Part shown: in pieces, positions 19,798 through 56,907 of the stretch
Numbering within the stretch: the first letter of the stretch is position 1
Layout: each line of letters opens with the position of its first letter
DNA from: Eremothecium cymbalariae DBVPG#7215
Taxonomy: Eukaryota; Ascomycota; Saccharomycetes; Saccharomycetales; Saccharomycetaceae
Reading direction: 5' to 3'
NCBI RefSeq assembly: GCF_000235365.1
Contig: NC_016452.1
Coordinates: 1-64,000 of the forward strand
DNA length: 64,000 nucleotides
Notes under the pieces: generated by a model
What the model was told of the DNA's origin: nothing
Databases searched by the model: none
The model's input: only the letters and a program-made list of their open reading frames with translations
Translations under genes and position numbers: made by a program

Positions 19798-22700
19798 ATG
19801 GAGGCTCCGTATATGCCAGAGTATTCTCTAGAATTGCAGCAGTTTGTGGAGGAGGTTTATGTGGAGAATTTGGAGGACTGTTATCAAAAGTTGAGGCTTG
19901 AGAAGCTTATAGATTTGCTAGAACATGGGGCGTATCTCCTTGAATCTTACAGGGAGTTGTTGGGGCGGGGGCAAGTGGAGGCTGGCATAACGGCGTATGT
20001 TGTGGGAGCATTTTATTTGTATTTGATTATTCCGCAGTCGATTGAGTTTCATACGAGGAATCTTTCGTATTCGATATATGTGGATTTAAAGCGGCATTAT
20101 GAGAGTGATCCAAATATGATGAATGTTATGTTGCTTGTGGCGGCAAAGGTGGGTTCTGTGATGCAGCTCTATCTATCTGGGGAAGGGGATGAAAAGTATG
20201 GTGCTCGGTTTACTGGCAGAAAGAGGGCATATTCGATGCAAAGTTGTGATTCGTCTAAACTTGCAGATACGTTGGGGAAACTGTCTATTGAGCGTTCCTC
20301 CACCAGGGGGACTACTGTGTTTGAAGGAAAGACGGAACAGGGTGCGTTTGGACAGCAGCAGCAAGATGATGAATGGGAGGATACTGTCTGGAGTGCTCCA
20401 AACCTGGAGCCGGATGATCAGCTAAAACTTGCTGTGTCGTATTCCCACTCACCCTCGATCCATGATACTTCAGATTCTAAAACCAAGGATTCAGGTCTTG
20501 AAAACAATTCTGCTGCAGAATTTTCTGTTTTAGATGAAGAATGGGTTTCTGAACGGCGATCTGGTTTCATGAGTCAGTCGTTACAGGTTGATTCTTCAGA
20601 CAACAAAAATAATGATGAACTACCTTCGATTGGGGACCACAATGACGTCTTAGATCGTTTTTACACACATGGACAGGATTTGCGTTATCCCATATGTAAT
20701 GATGGCGTTGTTCCATGTGAGAATAGTTCAATTATGTGGCTGTATGAGAGTTCCTCTATCAAATGTTTGGACTTACTTTCTAAGCTGACATCTAGTGAAC
20801 GCAGTTCTATGCTTTTAATTGACCTAAGGTTACCTAAGAGGTATGAGTACTCTCATATTTTAGCTGAAAATGTGATTAATATAGATCCCGAGTTACTGTG
20901 GGATGATGAAAAGGGTGCACCTGTTTCTTCAGTAAAGGAGTTAGAGTTAGTTATCGATAACCACTTATTCCGCAGCAGACGGCAGTTTGCTACCATTGTA
21001 TGTTACACGGATAATTATACCTACATGCAAATCGATTTCGACTTCGTATTTTTATTATTCAGATTACTATACCTTGGAAGACCCCAATTGGTTTTAAAAA
21101 CCCTTTCAGGTGGATACGAACAGTGGAAGTCTTTCTTGAAGGAATTGAAAAGAACTGAGTCAATTATATTGAGTGATTTTTTGTGGAAACGCCCTCATAA
21201 AAACGAGCATAGTAATGATATAGTCATCGCATCTGGGGAACCCTCTGATTCAAATAATTCTAAGTCCTTCCCGCCGTCTCTGGTTGAAAATTCGATACCA
21301 GCTTTTCAATCTGATCACAAACCCATAGCACAACAATCTTCCGTTGGAATTGAACCAATTCACCGGTTTTCTTCTGTATCAACATACAGCAAGCCAGTCG
21401 TGCCTCCTCCAATACCAGTCACTAGGCCTTTACTTAACCCGGCGACGAACCCATTGTCCCAGTATTGCAGTCAGATGTTGGTTAATGCTGTGAAGCCACC
21501 TAGCACTAATGAGAACTCTGTCTCACAATCACATCTTTCAACTACTCCGGATGCCAAGTCTGTCTCACAATCAAATCTTTCAACTACTCCGGATGCCAAG
21601 TCTGTTTCCCAATCAAATCTTTCAACTACTCCGGATGCCAAGTCTGTCTCACAATCAAATCTTTCAACTACTCCGGATGCCAAGTCTGTCTCACAATCAA
21701 ATCTTTCAACTACTCCGGATGCCAAGTCTGTCTCACAATCAAATCTTTCAACTACTCCGGATGCCAAGTCTGTCTCACAATCAAATCTTTCAACTACTCC
21801 GGATGCCAAGTCTGTCTCACAATCAAATCTTTCAACTACTCCGGATGCCAAGTCTGTCTCACAATCAAATCTTTCAACTACTCCGGATGCCAAGTCTGTC
21901 TCACAATCAAATCTTTCAACTACTCCGGATGCCAAGTCTGTCTCACAATCACATCTTTCATCTACTCCAGATGCCAAGTCTGTTTCCCAATCAAATCTTT
22001 CAGCTACTCCGGAATCAAATCTTTCAGCTACTCCGGATGCCAACTCTGCCTCACAATCAAATCTTTCAAATACTCCGGATGCCAAGTCCGTGTCACACGT
22101 ATCTATTACCACAACAACCGTGCCTATGGTGTTACCTCCTATACCAGTTACGAGGCCTTTGATACCGCCGCCATTCGAGAATAACAGAGCCGATTCATCT
22201 TTATCATCCACCCGTGAAACCAATGAGACTGTACCATTACCATTGCAAACCGTTAGAAATAGTGGATCCATTCCATTTTACCCTGTTGTTCAAGACAACA
22301 AGCCTACTCTATCCGCTATTTTCAGCGATGAAAAATTAACATCACAATCTATTGTTAATCATGATGATGATGACGGGACTAGCTCAAAGTCTGTATCTAG
22401 TTCACATAAAGGTATCATGCCAGTAAAAACTGTTGAACATGATTGTGATACTTCACCACTGCCTAACTTACTTCCAAAAATTCCAAAAATTGTATCATCT
22501 GTCGAAAATATCAACTCTGGTTTATCTCAATTTGTTTCTGCTTCGTCTTCCAGGCCTGTTTCATCACACAATATAAAATACAGCAAGTTTAATATGTCGC
22601 AGCCGCCTATTCCTATTACTAAACCACTTTTGACGCCATCAAACACTGTTTCAACATTCCACGTCCCGCTTGCACCATCTTCTATACCAATTAGGGCAAC

Positions 22701-24351
22701 AACGATAACGGCCTCACAATCCTCCCATCCTAATTATATGGCATCTCAAAAGCGGATGGAACTCTTCGAATCAGGATCTGTAAGATCTGTTACTACCTCG
22801 AAATATCCACTACCACTGGTAAACCCAATTCACGATCCTGCACAAGTTGCGTCAACACAGAGAACGGAAATTTATGATAATATTTGGCGAGCACTTGATA
22901 GGAGAAGCGAGAGGAGAAATCATCGAAGCAATGCATATGCTTCAGCATATCGAAAAAATTCATCAATTTCCCATAAAGGGGCTGACAGAAGCCCCGAGGA
23001 GACTAATAATATCAAAGTGGATGGCCATAAACTAATACGGAATCCTATCCCTCATTTTAGTATCCCAACAATTGAGAATAGTTATAACGAGTATGTTGCG
23101 TTATCAATAACTGGATTAAGGAATATGTCTAATACGTGTTATATTAATAGTATGCTTCAATGTTTATTTTCCACAAGTGCATTTCGGAACTTGTTTCTCT
23201 CAAATAAATATGCCCACTACTTGAAATCACCAGAAATGGATACAATGTCACGTTCTTTTTATATGCTATTTCGAAAGATGTACATGAATGGTGGTTGTTC
23301 TGTTGTGCCCAGTGGGTTTTTAAAAATGTGTAATACATTAAAACCTGACTTAAGAATACCGTATGGCCAACAGGACACTCAGGAGTTTTTATTATTTCTA
23401 TTAGACAAACTACATGATGAGTTATCTTCAATTGAATCTGTGAGTAATGATTATTCACACCTATTGCTGCATGATAATGTAAGATTATATGTTGATGACG
23501 CTCAATATAATAAGTGGTTTGATCAAAATATCGACCAGAATGGGCTGTCGCCTATAGATGATCTTTTTCAAGGTCAAATGGAAAACCAACTATCGTGTCA
23601 GAGATGCGGTTATTCTTCCTACACATATTCAACATTCTACGTTCTATCACTTGCACTACCTAACCCCGTCGCTAAAGCATTTGGTAAGACTAAGAAGCTC
23701 AGATTAGAGGATTGTATTAATTTTTTTACTTGTGATGAGGTTCTTAGCGACCAAAATGCATGGGATTGTCCTAGATGCTGCAGCCCATCTGATTATATGA
23801 GTTATGATCATAAAGGAAAAAGAAAGATATCTACTAGCTTCGAAAGTTTAAATGGTGGTAATTCTAGTCGTTCCAAGTTGTTTAAATTTGGCTATAAGAT
23901 GCGCTCAAGATCGGAAGCTCCTAAGTTTTCATCAAAACTTTCGGATAAAGTCAGCAATGGAAAGCCAGCTACTGTGAAATCTTTAAATTTTATCACCATG
24001 CCTCGGATATTGGTTATCCACTTGTCGCGTTTTATTTATGATCTGACCAAGAAAAACAACATTGTGGTGAGTTATCCGCTCATTCTTAATATTGTTCTAA
24101 AGAATAGCGAGGTTGCAAAATTTCGACTATACAGCATTGTGAATCATTTTGGCACATTAATAAGTGGGCATTATACGTCACTTGTGAATAAGGAATTAAA
24201 TCATGAAATTTCACACGGCAAACAGAAATGGTACTATTTTGACGATGAGATTGTTAAGTTTGACACCAACCATGGTGATTACGACAATGGCATAGCTTCT
24301 GTGTCAAGCAGCAACGTTTACGTGTTATTTTATGAACGAATTTTTGATTGA
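19798..24351 (+). CDS. UBP7: Ubiquitin-specific protease (Ubp7/Ubp11 orthologue)
   Basis: 1517 residues, longer than yeast Ubp7 (1071) and Ubp11 (717). A rhodanese-like domain (about 315-448, with LLIDLRLPKRYEYSHI) precedes a long low-complexity region with an in-frame 14-residue repeat (574-763), then the USP catalytic domain. The Cys box is GLRNMSNTCYINSMLQCL with nucleophile C1114; the His box is GTLISGHYTSLVNKE with H1458. Zinc-ribbon cysteines (CQRCGYSS, CPRCC) are present. It should remove ubiquitin from substrates; family members act in endocytic trafficking. Short PPIPVTRPL motifs (around 540, 780, 945) look like SH3-binding sites of the Doa4/Ubp7 family. Synteny fits both YIL156W and YKR098C, so this is the pre-duplication gene. 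Confidence 0.93.
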   Translation: MEAPYMPEYSLELQQFVEEVYVENLEDCYQKLRLEKLIDLLEHGAYLLESYRELLGRGQVEAGITAYVVGAFYLYLIIPQSIEFHTRNLSYSIYVDLKRHYESDPNMMNVMLLVAAKVGSVMQLYLSGEGDEKYGARFTGRKRAYSMQSCDSSKLADTLGKLSIERSSTRGTTVFEGKTEQGAFGQQQQDDEWEDTVWSAPNLEPDDQLKLAVSYSHSPSIHDTSDSKTKDSGLENNSAAEFSVLDEEWVSERRSGFMSQSLQVDSSDNKNNDELPSIGDHNDVLDRFYTHGQDLRYPICNDGVVPCENSSIMWLYESSSIKCLDLLSKLTSSERSSMLLIDLRLPKRYEYSHILAENVINIDPELLWDDEKGAPVSSVKELELVIDNHLFRSRRQFATIVCYTDNYTYMQIDFDFVFLLFRLLYLGRPQLVLKTLSGGYEQWKSFLKELKRTESIILSDFLWKRPHKNEHSNDIVIASGEPSDSNNSKSFPPSLVENSIPAFQSDHKPIAQQSSVGIEPIHRFSSVSTYSKPVVPPPIPVTRPLLNPATNPLSQYCSQMLVNAVKPPSTNENSVSQSHLSTTPDAKSVSQSNLSTTPDAKSVSQSNLSTTPDAKSVSQSNLSTTPDAKSVSQSNLSTTPDAKSVSQSNLSTTPDAKSVSQSNLSTTPDAKSVSQSNLSTTPDAKSVSQSNLSTTPDAKSVSQSNLSTTPDAKSVSQSHLSSTPDAKSVSQSNLSATPESNLSATPDANSASQSNLSNTPDAKSVSHVSITTTTVPMVLPPIPVTRPLIPPPFENNRADSSLSSTRETNETVPLPLQTVRNSGSIPFYPVVQDNKPTLSAIFSDEKLTSQSIVNHDDDDGTSSKSVSSSHKGIMPVKTVEHDCDTSPLPNLLPKIPKIVSSVENINSGLSQFVSASSSRPVSSHNIKYSKFNMSQPPIPITKPLLTPSNTVSTFHVPLAPSSIPIRATTITASQSSHPNYMASQKRMELFESGSVRSVTTSKYPLPLVNPIHDPAQVASTQRTEIYDNIWRALDRRSERRNHRSNAYASAYRKNSSISHKGADRSPEETNNIKVDGHKLIRNPIPHFSIPTIENSYNEYVALSITGLRNMSNTCYINSMLQCLFSTSAFRNLFLSNKYAHYLKSPEMDTMSRSFYMLFRKMYMNGGCSVVPSGFLKMCNTLKPDLRIPYGQQDTQEFLLFLLDKLHDELSSIESVSNDYSHLLLHDNVRLYVDDAQYNKWFDQNIDQNGLSPIDDLFQGQMENQLSCQRCGYSSYTYSTFYVLSLALPNPVAKAFGKTKKLRLEDCINFFTCDEVLSDQNAWDCPRCCSPSDYMSYDHKGKRKISTSFESLNGGNSSRSKLFKFGYKMRSRSEAPKFSSKLSDKVSNGKPATVKSLNFITMPRILVIHLSRFIYDLTKKNNIVVSYPLILNIVLKNSEVAKFRLYSIVNHFGTLISGHYTSLVNKELNHEISHGKQKWYYFDDEIVKFDTNHGDYDNGIASVSSSNVYVLFYERIFD
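21517..22086 (+). repeat. Intragenic 42-bp minisatellite in UBP7
   Basis: The array encodes twelve full copies of a 14-residue unit (consensus SVSQSNLSTTPDAK) plus a 22-residue stretch made of two truncated copies. Nine central units are identical in protein and almost identical in DNA, pointing to recent expansion or gene conversion. Degenerate units (SHLSSTPDAK, NLSATPE, NLSNTPDAK) cluster at the 3' side. A synonymous variant (GTTTCCCAATC instead of GTCTCACAATC) appears in the third unit and again near the 3' end. Confidence 0.95.
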
Positions 24352-53315: not shown

Positions 53316-54695
53316 TTATAGCATAATAAAATCTAGGGGCATGATACGACCCATAGATATCAAGGAATCGTCATAGCTTAGCTCTATGCCAAGAGTATGG
53401 ATCCATGTGCAAGACTCTAACCGGTCAGAGAAGAATGGTCTTAGAGATGAGGCTAACTTCTTCAGGGATGTCTTGCACAGGGAGTAGGCGTGTAGAAAAA
53501 GATTATGCGAGGATTTGTCTGTACCTTCTGGAGACAAGGGGGAAGAAGTTATATCGTCAACGGCAAGCTGACGTGGGACCAGGAAGGCATACCTAGTTGA
53601 TACCATTAGAGACACGCAGCATCCGATACCAATGCCAATTGTGATGGACGCTGTCCACACAACCCAATCACGGAAGGTACTCGGTTTAGATGGTCTCTTC
53701 TTTGCCTTTCTGGGCAGCTTTTTGACGGGCTCTACGGTAACTTCTGTTTCGTAGCCTGAGTCGGAACCACTTGAGAGCTGATGCAAATGTTTCAACAACC
53801 GATGTTTCTCGTGGTGGTTAGACATAACTATGGGGTTGCAGAATAATTTGATGCGGTTACCGCTGACGTATTGTTTTAGAAGAGAACTGAGATGTTGTTT
53901 CTGACCCTTCTGGCAAATAGGGATAATTCTGGGACGCACAACCTTATTACAGATTCTGTCCAATAACTCCGGCGCCAAACCCATATCATGGAAAATCACC
54001 ATAATGGTAGAATATTTCTCATCAACATCTTTATCTCTCAACACAGATAAACTGCAGATCTCGAACATCTTCTGGTAGCTCTTTGGAATACTAAACCAAA
54101 ACTTCCTGGCCGGCTGGCCAACAATCAGGACTTTAGATTCGATGATACGATCGGAGAGGGATAGCTTTGGCATCACAAGTGATGTCATCGTATTGGGGAG
54201 GCTGACTGTCACTGTCTCGCCGTCATCGTCTTCATCCTCAGATCTCAAGTGGGATAAAGTGGCAGAAAAGGCCTGTCCTGCAATATTTATAATCCTGCTA
54301 TCAAAAGCACTAGACGCACTATTAGGAGGGGGTGGTGAAGGGTGGATGTCTTGTTCCTCCTCAGAAGTATCAGAAGAGGATAGAATCCCAACGGCGCTCT
54401 GCTGCTGCAACGAGGTGTCATTAGCCCGTGAAAGAAACAAGTAATCCGTGCTTTTAATAGACTGCCATGACTCCGAAATACTATGATGTAACACTCTTTC
54501 CCCTTCAAACTGCTTTCCCGATACTCTACTTGCCCCAGAAAGCTCATGTGGCCCCTCAACCTTATTTAACTCCTTTCCTTCCAATATCTCCAACACAGAG
54601 AGATGAGGATCCAAAATACTCCTTTGTGTAGTACCAGGTAAACCTCCATTTTGAGTGTGGCCGTTAGACTGCATCTTTTCAACCGTTTGTGACAT
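53316..54695 (-). CDS. ATG32: Mitophagy receptor Atg32
   Basis: 459 residues (yeast 529). The N-terminal cytosolic part holds the Atg8-interacting motif WQSI (residues 77-80, within SESWQSIKS), followed by the phosphorylatable SSSDTSEEEQD cluster (about 106-116; in yeast the equivalent serines recruit Atg11). A pseudo-receiver-like domain (about 185-300) precedes a single C-terminal transmembrane span (about 344-369, VVWTASITIGIGIGCCVSLMV), leaving about 90 residues in the intermembrane space. Atg32 sits in the mitochondrial outer membrane and marks mitochondria for selective autophagy. Position beside SLN1 matches YIL146C. Confidence 0.92.
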   Translation of the reverse strand: MSQTVEKMQSNGHTQNGGLPGTTQRSILDPHLSVLEILEGKELNKVEGPHELSGASRVSGKQFEGERVLHHSISESWQSIKSTDYLFLSRANDTSLQQQSAVGILSSSDTSEEEQDIHPSPPPPNSASSAFDSRIINIAGQAFSATLSHLRSEDEDDDGETVTVSLPNTMTSLVMPKLSLSDRIIESKVLIVGQPARKFWFSIPKSYQKMFEICSLSVLRDKDVDEKYSTIMVIFHDMGLAPELLDRICNKVVRPRIIPICQKGQKQHLSSLLKQYVSGNRIKLFCNPIVMSNHHEKHRLLKHLHQLSSGSDSGYETEVTVEPVKKLPRKAKKRPSKPSTFRDWVVWTASITIGIGIGCCVSLMVSTRYAFLVPRQLAVDDITSSPLSPEGTDKSSHNLFLHAYSLCKTSLKKLASSLRPFFSDRLESCTWIHTLGIELSYDDSLISMGRIMPLDFIML

Positions 54696-55498
54696 CGCTT
54701 GGGTTGCTACTCAAGTTTCGATAGCTCTTATTTCCTTTTGGAATACTGTTCGATGAGTTTAGTAGTCGCGTTCCATGTTAATTAAATCTAAACTGTTTCC
54801 CTAATTTTAAATTCGCCTCCTGAGGAGGGGTGCACCGTCCCCGCTGTGAATCCCCCGACTCAATCTACAGAAGTTGCATGATGATCTACCTCATTCAGTG
54901 GTGGTCAAGAAGAATATGTAAGTTAATCTTGTGTACTTGCTATGTAGAGAGGTGCATCATATGTGTCTACTTGGGTTAAGAGGAGGCAACGGAATGTTAT
55001 GTTGTATATGTATGTCTTTCTAAAATGTTAGATCCAATATTCTAGTCCTTGTATTTATATTAGAAATATTAGTTTTCAAATACAAATATAAAGTACGGTA
55101 CATTTTGAAAGTTGGCACGTAACTGTCAGCAAAATGACATGTGTGGCGAGGCACATCCACAGGAGGATGTTTGACAGATACTGTGGTTATAAAGAGACAT
55201 CAAGCTGGTACCACGTATAGTGCGAGGGTGTGCGTTTCTTTCAGTTTGAAAATCGATGGTGCTGGCACACGTAGCGATAAAGCGTCAGTAAAATTAAGTA
55301 GTGATAAATATTATAATACAAATGATAATCGTAACTGAACAGCGAAAATATTGAATTAGGTGTGTTGGAAGCCCTATATAAAATTAGTTGTGTGTGGAGC
55401 GAAGCGAAATATATATATATATATATAGGTACGTAACTGTGGCATAACAATAAAACAGTGTTACCTTCCTTCCGCAGGCTGACGTTGCATCACTGATT
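54696..55498. other. ATG32 upstream / MFA downstream region
   Basis: 803 bp, AT-rich, between two minus-strand genes. Contains a TATATA run (about 55410-55427). No conserved coding sequence or RNA gene was found; an ATGATGA resembling a snoRNA C box at about 54878 lacks a D box. Confidence 0.5.
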
Positions 55499-55603
55499 TT
55501 AAGCAATAACGCATTGGGGGTTCCAAGCGTATCCTTTGACGATCCAGTTATCCTTTTCCTGAGATTTGTTGTTATCTTGAGAGGCGGATGTGGCTGGTTG
55601 CAT
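55499..55603 (-). CDS. MFA: a-factor-type mating pheromone precursor
   Basis: A 34-residue frame, ATG at 55603 to TAA at 55499-55501. It begins MQPATSASQ, continues with a hydrophilic Asn/Lys/Gln leader, and ends KDN-WIVKGYAWNPQC-VIA. The terminal CVIA is a CaaX farnesylation box, and the block after KDN parallels the S. cerevisiae a-factor (same KDN cleavage site, same CVIA, alternating IxKGxxW pattern). Predicted mature pheromone is WIVKGYAWNPQC with farnesyl-cysteine methyl ester, produced by Ram1/Ram2, Rce1/Ste24, Ste14, Axl1/Ste23 and exported by a Ste6-type ABC transporter. The spacer between ATG32 and PAN6 has no such gene in S. cerevisiae. A TATA box and an a-specific-type operator lie upstream. 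The gene is easily missed for its size. Confidence 0.93.
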   Translation of the reverse strand: MQPATSASQDNNKSQEKDNWIVKGYAWNPQCVIA

Positions 55604-55727
55604 TGTATTTGATTCTTTTCAGCTTTCTGTATTGAGAAGACTTGTCGTTCTTTGGTCTGAGCAGGGAAGAACAAGGAAGAAGAGATGGAGTGTGCCCAGA
55701 GTATCAGATTACAACCAACACAGCGCA

Positions 55728-55735
55728 TATATATA
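55728..55735 (-). promoter_or_regulatory. TATA box of MFA
   Basis: TATATATA lies 125-132 bp upstream of the MFA ATG and is the only strong TATA sequence in that interval, a spacing normal for yeast TATA-containing genes. Confidence 0.6.
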
Positions 55736-55840: not shown

Positions 55841-55862
55841 TTTTCCAGATTGGGTAATTACA
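55841..55862 (-). promoter_or_regulatory. a-specific-gene operator (alpha2 half-site plus Mcm1 box)
   Basis: Reading on the minus strand: TGTAATTACC running into CCCAATCTGG and then AAAA. TGTAATTA is the alpha2 homeodomain half-site, and CC-CAATCT-GG fits the Mcm1 P-box CC-N6-GG. The order and spacing match one half of S. cerevisiae a-specific operators such as STE6. It lies about 240 bp upstream of the MFA start. The second alpha2 half-site is not evident. Confidence 0.7.
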
Positions 55863-55962
55863 AAGGCAGAGTTGAACAATGAAGTTCAATAGATCTCCGT
55901 TTGCCGAGGAAACTTTGAAAGTATAGGACATATTTAGTACTTTCCCAAAAGAAGGTTTTTAT

Positions 55963-56907
55963 TTACAGCATTGTTTCATTTTTGGTCTTAATCAAGATAT
56001 TGTCAATAAGTCTGACAATGGTATCCTTGCACCTGCGGTCTTTCACATACACAGCACAGCTAATCACAACGTCATTATTTTTTGAAACAGCAGGGACTAG
56101 TTCTCTTAAGGTGTTTGCATTAGCAATTGAGATATAATCAATCTCAAAGTCGCCGGATGCAACATAAGGGTCCCAAACAGCTTTCGCTTGGGCCACCAGA
56201 TCTTCATGGCTAACACTTTTATTATCCAACCAACTATTTTCAAGCAAAGTAGCACAGGCACGCAAACCAGCATTAATATTCGAAGCAATATCCAGAGATT
56301 CAGGGCTTAAGTACTTATTCCTACTGCTCAATGCCAAACCCGAGACGCTTCTTACAATAGGCATCAAGACCATTTCAACATCCATAAACAAATCTTTGGT
56401 CATTGCATTCAAGACGGTATATTGCTGGAAATCCTTCTGGCCCCAATACGCCCTATCCGGCCTGAAGATATTCAATAGTTTGCTCACCACAGTAACCACG
56501 CCCCTAAAGAAATTTGGTCTCGTGCGTCCTTCCAGCAACTCACTCAATCCATGAACCGAGACAAACGTTCCCTCCTGTTTGGACACTTCCAATGGCACGT
56601 CACGGGAGTATATTTCCAACGCCGAGGGAACAAAAACCATATCTACACCCGCCTGCTCTAACATATCGAGATCTGCCTCCAAAGTTCTGGGATACTTCGC
56701 GAGGTCTTCGTCTGGTGCAAATTGAGCAGGATTAACAAAAATCGAAACAGCAGTGAAGTCATTCTCAGCAACAGATCTCTCCACAAGCGACAAATGGCCC
56801 AAGTGCAGACACCCCATTGTAGCAACAAATCCAAGCTTCCGTGCATTGCTATTTACAGTTGCCTTCCTCCAGTCAATCGCATCTTTAACGGTCTTCACGA
56901 CAAGCAT
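55963..56907 (-). CDS. PAN6: Pantothenate synthase (pantoate-beta-alanine ligase)
   Basis: 314 residues (yeast 309) from the ATG at 56907; ten codons upstream stay open only to a GTG. Condenses pantoate with beta-alanine using ATP, the last step of vitamin B5 synthesis. The nucleotidyltransferase HxGH motif is in GFVATMGCLHLGHLSL, pantoate-binding residues in FVNPAQFAPDEDLAKYPRT, and the KMSKS-like loop in LALSSRNKYLSPESL; GQKDFQQY is also conserved. Position between ATG32 and NDC80 with divergent NDC80 matches YIL145C/YIL144W. Confidence 0.96.
   Translation of the reverse strand: MLVVKTVKDAIDWRKATVNSNARKLGFVATMGCLHLGHLSLVERSVAENDFTAVSIFVNPAQFAPDEDLAKYPRTLEADLDMLEQAGVDMVFVPSALEIYSRDVPLEVSKQEGTFVSVHGLSELLEGRTRPNFFRGVVTVVSKLLNIFRPDRAYWGQKDFQQYTVLNAMTKDLFMDVEMVLMPIVRSVSGLALSSRNKYLSPESLDIASNINAGLRACATLLENSWLDNKSVSHEDLVAQAKAVWDPYVASGDFEIDYISIANANTLRELVPAVSKNNDVVISCAVYVKDRRCKDTIVRLIDNILIKTKNETML

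Follow-up and report, generated by a model that had tools for sequence, protein, structure and literature searches.

Does the short open frame between ATG32 and PAN6 on contig C4 of Eremothecium cymbalariae encode an a-factor mating pheromone, and does it stand alone in this genome? We analyzed a window of 64,000 nucleotides (C4:1-64000) and searched the assembly of 9,669,424 bases in 8 contigs from which it comes. A sequence-only reading had proposed a 34-codon a-factor gene at 55499..55603, here called MFA-A. The features of the locus are listed below by window position.

55963..56907, minus strand: PAN6, pantoate-beta-alanine ligase, upstream neighbour (PF02569, E 1e-89)
55499..55603, minus strand: MFA-A, 34-codon a-factor precursor gene, stop included (Pfam PF17317 MFA1_2)
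55547..55603, minus strand: N-terminal pro-region MQPATSASQDNNKSQEKDN, read from the sequence and expected to be removed during maturation
55547..55555, minus strand: KDN, predicted last N-terminal processing site with the cut after N, from the sequence and by analogy with S. cerevisiae
55511..55546, minus strand: predicted mature dodecapeptide WIVKGYAWNPQC, read from the sequence and expected to end in a farnesyl-Cys methyl ester
55502..55513, minus strand: CaaX box CVIA, then the stop, read from the sequence and identical in the paralogues MFA-B and MFA-C
53316..54695, minus strand: ATG32, downstream neighbour (49% identical to a protein of Ashbya aceri and 45% to one of E. sinecaudum)

The ATG frame of MFA-A runs from 55603 to 55499 and is translated as MQPATSASQDNNKSQEKDNWIVKGYAWNPQCVIA. 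It matched Pfam PF17317 (MFA1_2, 'Mating hormone A-factor 1&2') over positions 1-34 of 34 at E 1.5e-21, scoring 76.2 bits where 25 is the cut-off; this was the single family matched, and in a profile search of the whole genome the frame was recovered at E 1.1e-19. This full-length Pfam match excludes chance. The plus strand of 55499-55603, read in one frame, did not encode an a-factor peptide, and a search of solved structures gave 0 matches at E up to 10. The alternative that the stretch is a structured RNA, and not a gene for a peptide, found no support (folding z-score -0.82).

In S. cerevisiae, a-factor precursors start with MQ, carry an Asn (KDN) ahead of the mature 12-mer and end in a CVIA box, as MFA-A does, and the pro-region is removed in the course of maturation. 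KDN stands directly before WIVKGYAWNPQC in MFA-A, and cleavage is predicted there. With MFA1/MFA2 of S. cerevisiae (PF17317), MFA-A shares a 12-residue mature part, the CaaX Cys and the full-length profile match, but the mature part is identical at only 6 of 12 positions to the S. cerevisiae dodecapeptide, printed as YIIKGVFWDPAC in the available part of PMC7035247. Direct comparison gave six differences (Y1W, I3V, V6Y, F7A, D9N, A11Q), exactly those that the sequence-only reading had listed. Its other claims on the peptide also held: the frame lies on the minus strand with a full-length family match, its coordinates and sequence agree with an end of KDN-WIVKGYAWNPQC-VIA with a CaaX box, and WIVKGYAWNPQC appears to be the right prediction for the mature lipopeptide. 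The length of 34 residues falls within the 32-38 residues given for MFA precursors in the accessible part of PMC3161974. Judged from its sequence, MFA-A is almost certain to code for a farnesylated mating pheromone similar to the a-factor of baker's yeast.

The position between ATG32 and PAN6 was likewise borne out, by an ATG32 homologue (its relatives carry that name in other yeasts) and a PF02569 ligase as flanks; NDC80 and a gene for an SLN1-type histidine kinase lie beyond them. The flanking genes are presumably neighbours in S. cerevisiae as well, where we know of no pheromone gene between ATG32 and PAN6, and we take the site of MFA-A to differ from the S. cerevisiae MFA sites. Elsewhere in the window, an open frame of short repeats (CTGLSAVW) occupies 3-602 at the end of contig C4, probably in subtelomeric DNA. 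Repeats with a unit around DAKSVSQSNLSTTP occupy 21471-22271, within a 1517-aa frame (19798-24351) that resembles a ubiquitin protease; other frames are open there too.

The MFA-A protein was absent from a database of 5.8 billion sequences, in which a search with the MFA-B protein returned Ecym_6479 only. A database candidate needs at least 3 shared 5-residue words; MFA-A shares 4 with the MFA-B query and would have scored E 4.3e-5 at that database size, had a record existed. The claim that MFA-A is unannotated is therefore supported indirectly, without proof, and MFA-A is probably an overlooked gene. It had also been suggested that the gene escapes gene calling by its length. The 34 residues stand, but length as the sole cause does not, because a paralogue of equally 34 residues, Ecym_6479, is in the database (its record name is 'uncharacterized' only). 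The paralogues are as follows.

L002:1501-1605 = C6:928035-928139: MFA-B, second a-factor gene (database protein Ecym_6479, 100% match)
L003:1498-1578 = C6:754274-754354: MFA-C, 26-codon a-factor-like gene (PF17317, E 9.2e-5)

MFA-A is thus one of three related a-factor-like genes in the genome, and a PQCVIA-then-TAA pattern occurred at these 3 places in 9.67 Mb (MFA-A, MFA-B and MFA-C; reversed control, 0). MFA-B resembles MFA-A in its 34 residues, its WNPQCVIA end and an operator-like element, and the two are 53% identical over 34 residues. Its predicted mature peptide WIIKGFVWNPQC has 3 differences from that of MFA-A, and its predicted cut site is KDH where MFA-A has KDN (His for Asn). MFA-B is flanked by an elongin-A gene and a GST-domain gene, the latter assigned by position to URE2.

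The promoter of MFA-A was then read for control elements.

55728..55735, minus strand: TATATATA, probable TATA element at -132 to -125, read from the sequence
55845..55862, minus strand: TGTAATTACCCAATCTGG, candidate a-specific operator with an alpha2 half-site (-259) and an Mcm1 box (-251), by pattern match
55876..55881, minus strand: CATTGT, possible MATa2 (HMG) site 13 bases upstream of the operator (weak)
L007:1501-1518, L009:1501-1518 and C1:963470-963487: operator-like elements before BAR1-like, ASG7-like and STE2 genes

Between the TATA element and the start codon of MFA-A, the sole ATG is one that overlaps the TATA element. The candidate operator spans -259 to -242; in the MFA-B promoter, TGTAATTAACCTAATTAGG, with its Mcm1 box at -347, lies at -356 and is followed by TTACAT. 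The alpha2-Mcm1 operator consensus of S. cerevisiae has the same layout as both elements. A pattern written from the MFA-A and MFA-B promoters matched the window once, at MFA-A (0.01 expected), and the genome at 4 places, namely before MFA-A, MFA-B, a BAR1-like gene and an ASG7-like gene (reversed pattern, 1). Since the pattern was derived after inspection of both promoters, the matches at MFA-A and MFA-B are by construction. The third match lies upstream of a gene for an aspartyl protease adjoining a BAG-domain gene, which we take to be BAR1 beside SNL1 from the S. cerevisiae order. The fourth precedes the gene for a 196-aa protein, whose neighbours are a Set2 SRI-domain gene and a member of the YJL171C/Tos1 family; by the same order, this is presumably the ASG7 position. 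STE2, which stood outside the making of the pattern, has a close operator match at -248.

Nine 800-bp promoters were scored with the operator consensus and weights of our own against 79 window tiles of 800 bp. Results showed that MFA-B (41) and STE2 (37) scored above all 79 tiles, and that for MFA-A (35), the BAR1-like gene (34) and the ASG7-like gene (32) 1 of 79 tiles scored as high, in every case the one containing the MFA-A operator. The 800-bp promoters of STE6, the AXL1-like gene and MFA-C each came out at the tile median of 27 (48 of 79 tiles as high or higher), and that of the alpha-specific STE3 scored 30 (6 of 79 as high or higher), so that these four were not supported as further operator carriers. 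Four of the five positives had been chosen by the pattern; the fair test is therefore STE2, STE6 and the AXL1-like gene, and it gave one of three. As to a-specific regulation, MFA-A has the operator-like element and all 4 genome matches of the pattern stand at genes of a-specific type, but STE6 and the AXL1-like gene are without it over 800 bp.

Allowing up to one mismatch gave 11 matches against 8 in the reversed control, and the looser pattern is therefore unspecific. Its 4 exact matches were at STE2, MFA-A, the BAR1-like gene and C2:938501; the last lies inside a coding frame resembling, by eye, pyruvate decarboxylase and was taken as chance. The other 7 comprise the ASG7-like site, an overlap at the BAR1-like gene on the other strand and five elsewhere. 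A one-mismatch operator at L044:1289-1306 (C6:370788) lies 156 bp before a frame resembling a repeat-rich cell-wall protein, which could be an agglutinin; the match could also be due to chance. PRE-like TGAAACA at -375 and -486 of MFA-A falls inside PAN6 at both places and was given no weight. CATTGT was read with the MATa2 (HMG) site consensus, and hexamers of this type number 4 in the 1300 bp upstream of MFA-A. For yeasts that predate the genome duplication, a-specific regulation was inferred by Tuch et al. to be putatively of a hybrid MATa2/MATalpha2 mode, as stated in the part of PMC2253631 at hand; a CATTGT near the operator would suit this mode, if weakly.

The genome also holds genes of the types that an a-factor would need for processing, export and reception. 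STE3 and STE2 are present as one gene each, and both an ICMT/Ste14 family gene and the Ste24-type protease family were found. A 1315-aa ABC frame has two membrane domains, as do three longer frames, and is assigned by size only to the Ste6-type exporter. One of eight M16 peptidase matches lies in a 1196-aa frame, likewise called AXL1-like by size only. Both MATa and MATalpha cassettes, along with two alpha-factor genes, are described for E. cymbalariae (PMC3276169, in the portion available). With both cassettes present, MFA-A might encode a CaaX lipopeptide with a role besides the recognition of partners, for example the autocrine control of growth or sporulation where a mycelium can hold both mating types, and autocrine pheromone signalling is raised as a hypothesis in the accessible part of a review on A. 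gossypii (PMC7558398). However, the a-specific type of the operator points to use restricted by cell type, and we regard this role as unlikely, though a mating and an autocrine role are compatible with each other.

To the operator and the family match, the comparison of MFA-A with MFA-B adds evidence from coding conservation. The final 18 codons, which run from the K of KDN (residue 17) through the CaaX box, gave a dN of 0.097 and a dS of 2.23, with 2/2/7 nucleotide differences by codon position; over the first 16 codons dN was 0.86 and dS 1.02. The 100-base flanks, compared without gaps, were alike at 30 and 23 bases. These values suggest that the mature part is under purifying selection, by a comparison of two sequences, MFA-A and MFA-B. 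MFA-B has stops in both other frames of the same strand. Codon bias was weak in MFA-A (CAI 0.520, P 0.047 against the null) and absent in MFA-B (P 0.43).

MFA-A could in principle be a relocated MFA copy that fell silent recently, a relic still intact but unused, with MFA-B as the working gene. A second canonical copy does exist in MFA-B, and the pro-region has diverged almost freely over those first 16 codons. Yet the frame is intact despite a dS of 2.2, the mature part is conserved, operator-like and TATA elements are present, and MFA genes as a whole are described as highly divergent in sequence in the available text of PMC3161974. We consider a relic very improbable. A frame of 114 aa that overlaps MFA-A (55384-55728, minus strand) is longer and has the first start codon, but no Pfam family matches it, its start codon overlaps the TATA element, the corresponding MFA-B frame contains two stops and the a-factor match of MFA-A is far past chance, so it was rejected as a gene and the notion that the a-factor frame is incidental to it is scarcely credible.

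MFA-C is the less ordinary part of the finding, being divergent, operator-less, codon-biased and outside the window. It is translated as MQESQKTENKENYSGDYVWSPQCVIA, ending YSGDYVWSPQCVIA, with KEN ahead of YSGDYVWSPQC and a PQCVIA end. In the genome profile search it was a weak third match (E 0.0084), and its Pfam score of 22.5 bits is under the PF17317 cut-off of 25. Unlike MFA-A with its 34 codons, MFA-C has 26, lacks the operator over 800 bp and shows strong codon bias. Its CAI was 0.806, where the null has a mean of 0.436 (P 0.00015, 20,000 draws) and 15 window genes reach 0.446 at most, and its codon usage is close to that of glyceraldehyde-3-phosphate dehydrogenase and enolase. A TATAAA stands some 120 bases upstream of its start codon, and the 1300 bp upstream showed no Mcm1-type box. 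A protein database search with the MFA-C frame gave zero candidates.

The genes around MFA-C belong to the families C2, PGA2, CAP-Gly/ubiquitin-like, LSM, UPRTase and actin, and also DUF2009, Pga1, endosulfine, INSIG, WLM and AN1. We take many of them to be INN1, PGA2, ALF1, LSM7 / FUR1, ARP1 / IGO, NSG and WSS1, presumably the paired S. cerevisiae region that holds MFA2 (YNL145W). An adjoining 837-aa frame, in which no Pfam match was found, is assigned by position only to YNL144C/YHR131C. From gene order, the site of MFA-C is presumably that of S. cerevisiae MFA2. If this is right, the oldest site has the most altered copy, and MFA-A is relocated. It is conceivable, though we lean against it, that a filamentous fungus with both cassettes and a single Ste3 uses up to three lipopeptides, MFA-A and MFA-B being a-specific and MFA-C made in all cell types. 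MFA-C, with the predicted peptide YSGDYVWSPQC at the ancestral MFA2 site, would then have shed its operator, shortened its mature part and gained the codon usage of highly expressed genes, and it might serve in self-signalling, in another role or in damping the receptor response.

For MFA-A itself, we hold with high confidence that it is a functional a-factor gene of E. cymbalariae. The model starts from what the genome contains, namely the frame, its family match, the coding conservation between paralogues, a rare operator-like element and genes of receptor, exporter and processing types; for transcription, operator function, modification and receptor activation it follows the S. cerevisiae pathway. 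In a-type nuclei, where MATalpha2 is absent, Mcm1, perhaps with MATa2, would activate MFA-A via -259 to -242, and transcription would lead to the 34-residue precursor. The precursor would be farnesylated at C31, trimmed of VIA, carboxymethylated and cut after KDN. A Ste6-type transporter would export WIVKGYAWNPQC-farnesyl-OMe, and Ste3 on alpha-type partners would sense it. In alpha-type nuclei, alpha2-Mcm1 would repress MFA-A.

Srikant et al. (2023) are said to treat yeast pheromone genes and may well list MFA-A. With SearchDOGS, MFA genes of K. lactis, Lachancea, Z. rouxii and N. castellii were found, and in 11 species MFA genes occupy ten sites, their duplication or transposition being apparently frequent (PMC3161974, from the part available). 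Like MFA-A, these genes are short, overlooked and at scattered sites, and the 11-species table, as it appears in that part of the paper, does not include E. cymbalariae (PMC3161974). Since relocating, overlooked MFA genes are known from this work, MFA-A appears new as a member and is ordinary as a kind. A small-frame prediction in 31 fungal genomes including E. cymbalariae gave 11 frames of 34-35 residues with mating pheromone activity, according to the accessible text, and Ecym_6479 or MFA-A may be among them (PMC7394265). Apart from PMC7394265 and the work of Srikant et al., the literature found names no a-factor gene of E. cymbalariae; earlier print is possible. In the main text of the E. 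cymbalariae genome paper, 'a-factor' and 'MFA' have 0 occurrences (PMC3276169).

That paper covers the alpha-factor genes in the portion available (PMC3276169); with MFA-A added, the pheromone set would be complete in a species put forward as the sexual model for Eremothecium. In A. gossypii, a relative in the same genus, mating has never been observed according to the accessible part of PMC7558398, and WIVKGYAWNPQC is a peptide that can be synthesized for mating tests in the genus. The operator-like element at five a-specific-type genes provides a concrete cis-element in a species that predates the genome duplication, and the divergence of MFA-C raises a testable question on the loss of cell-type control.
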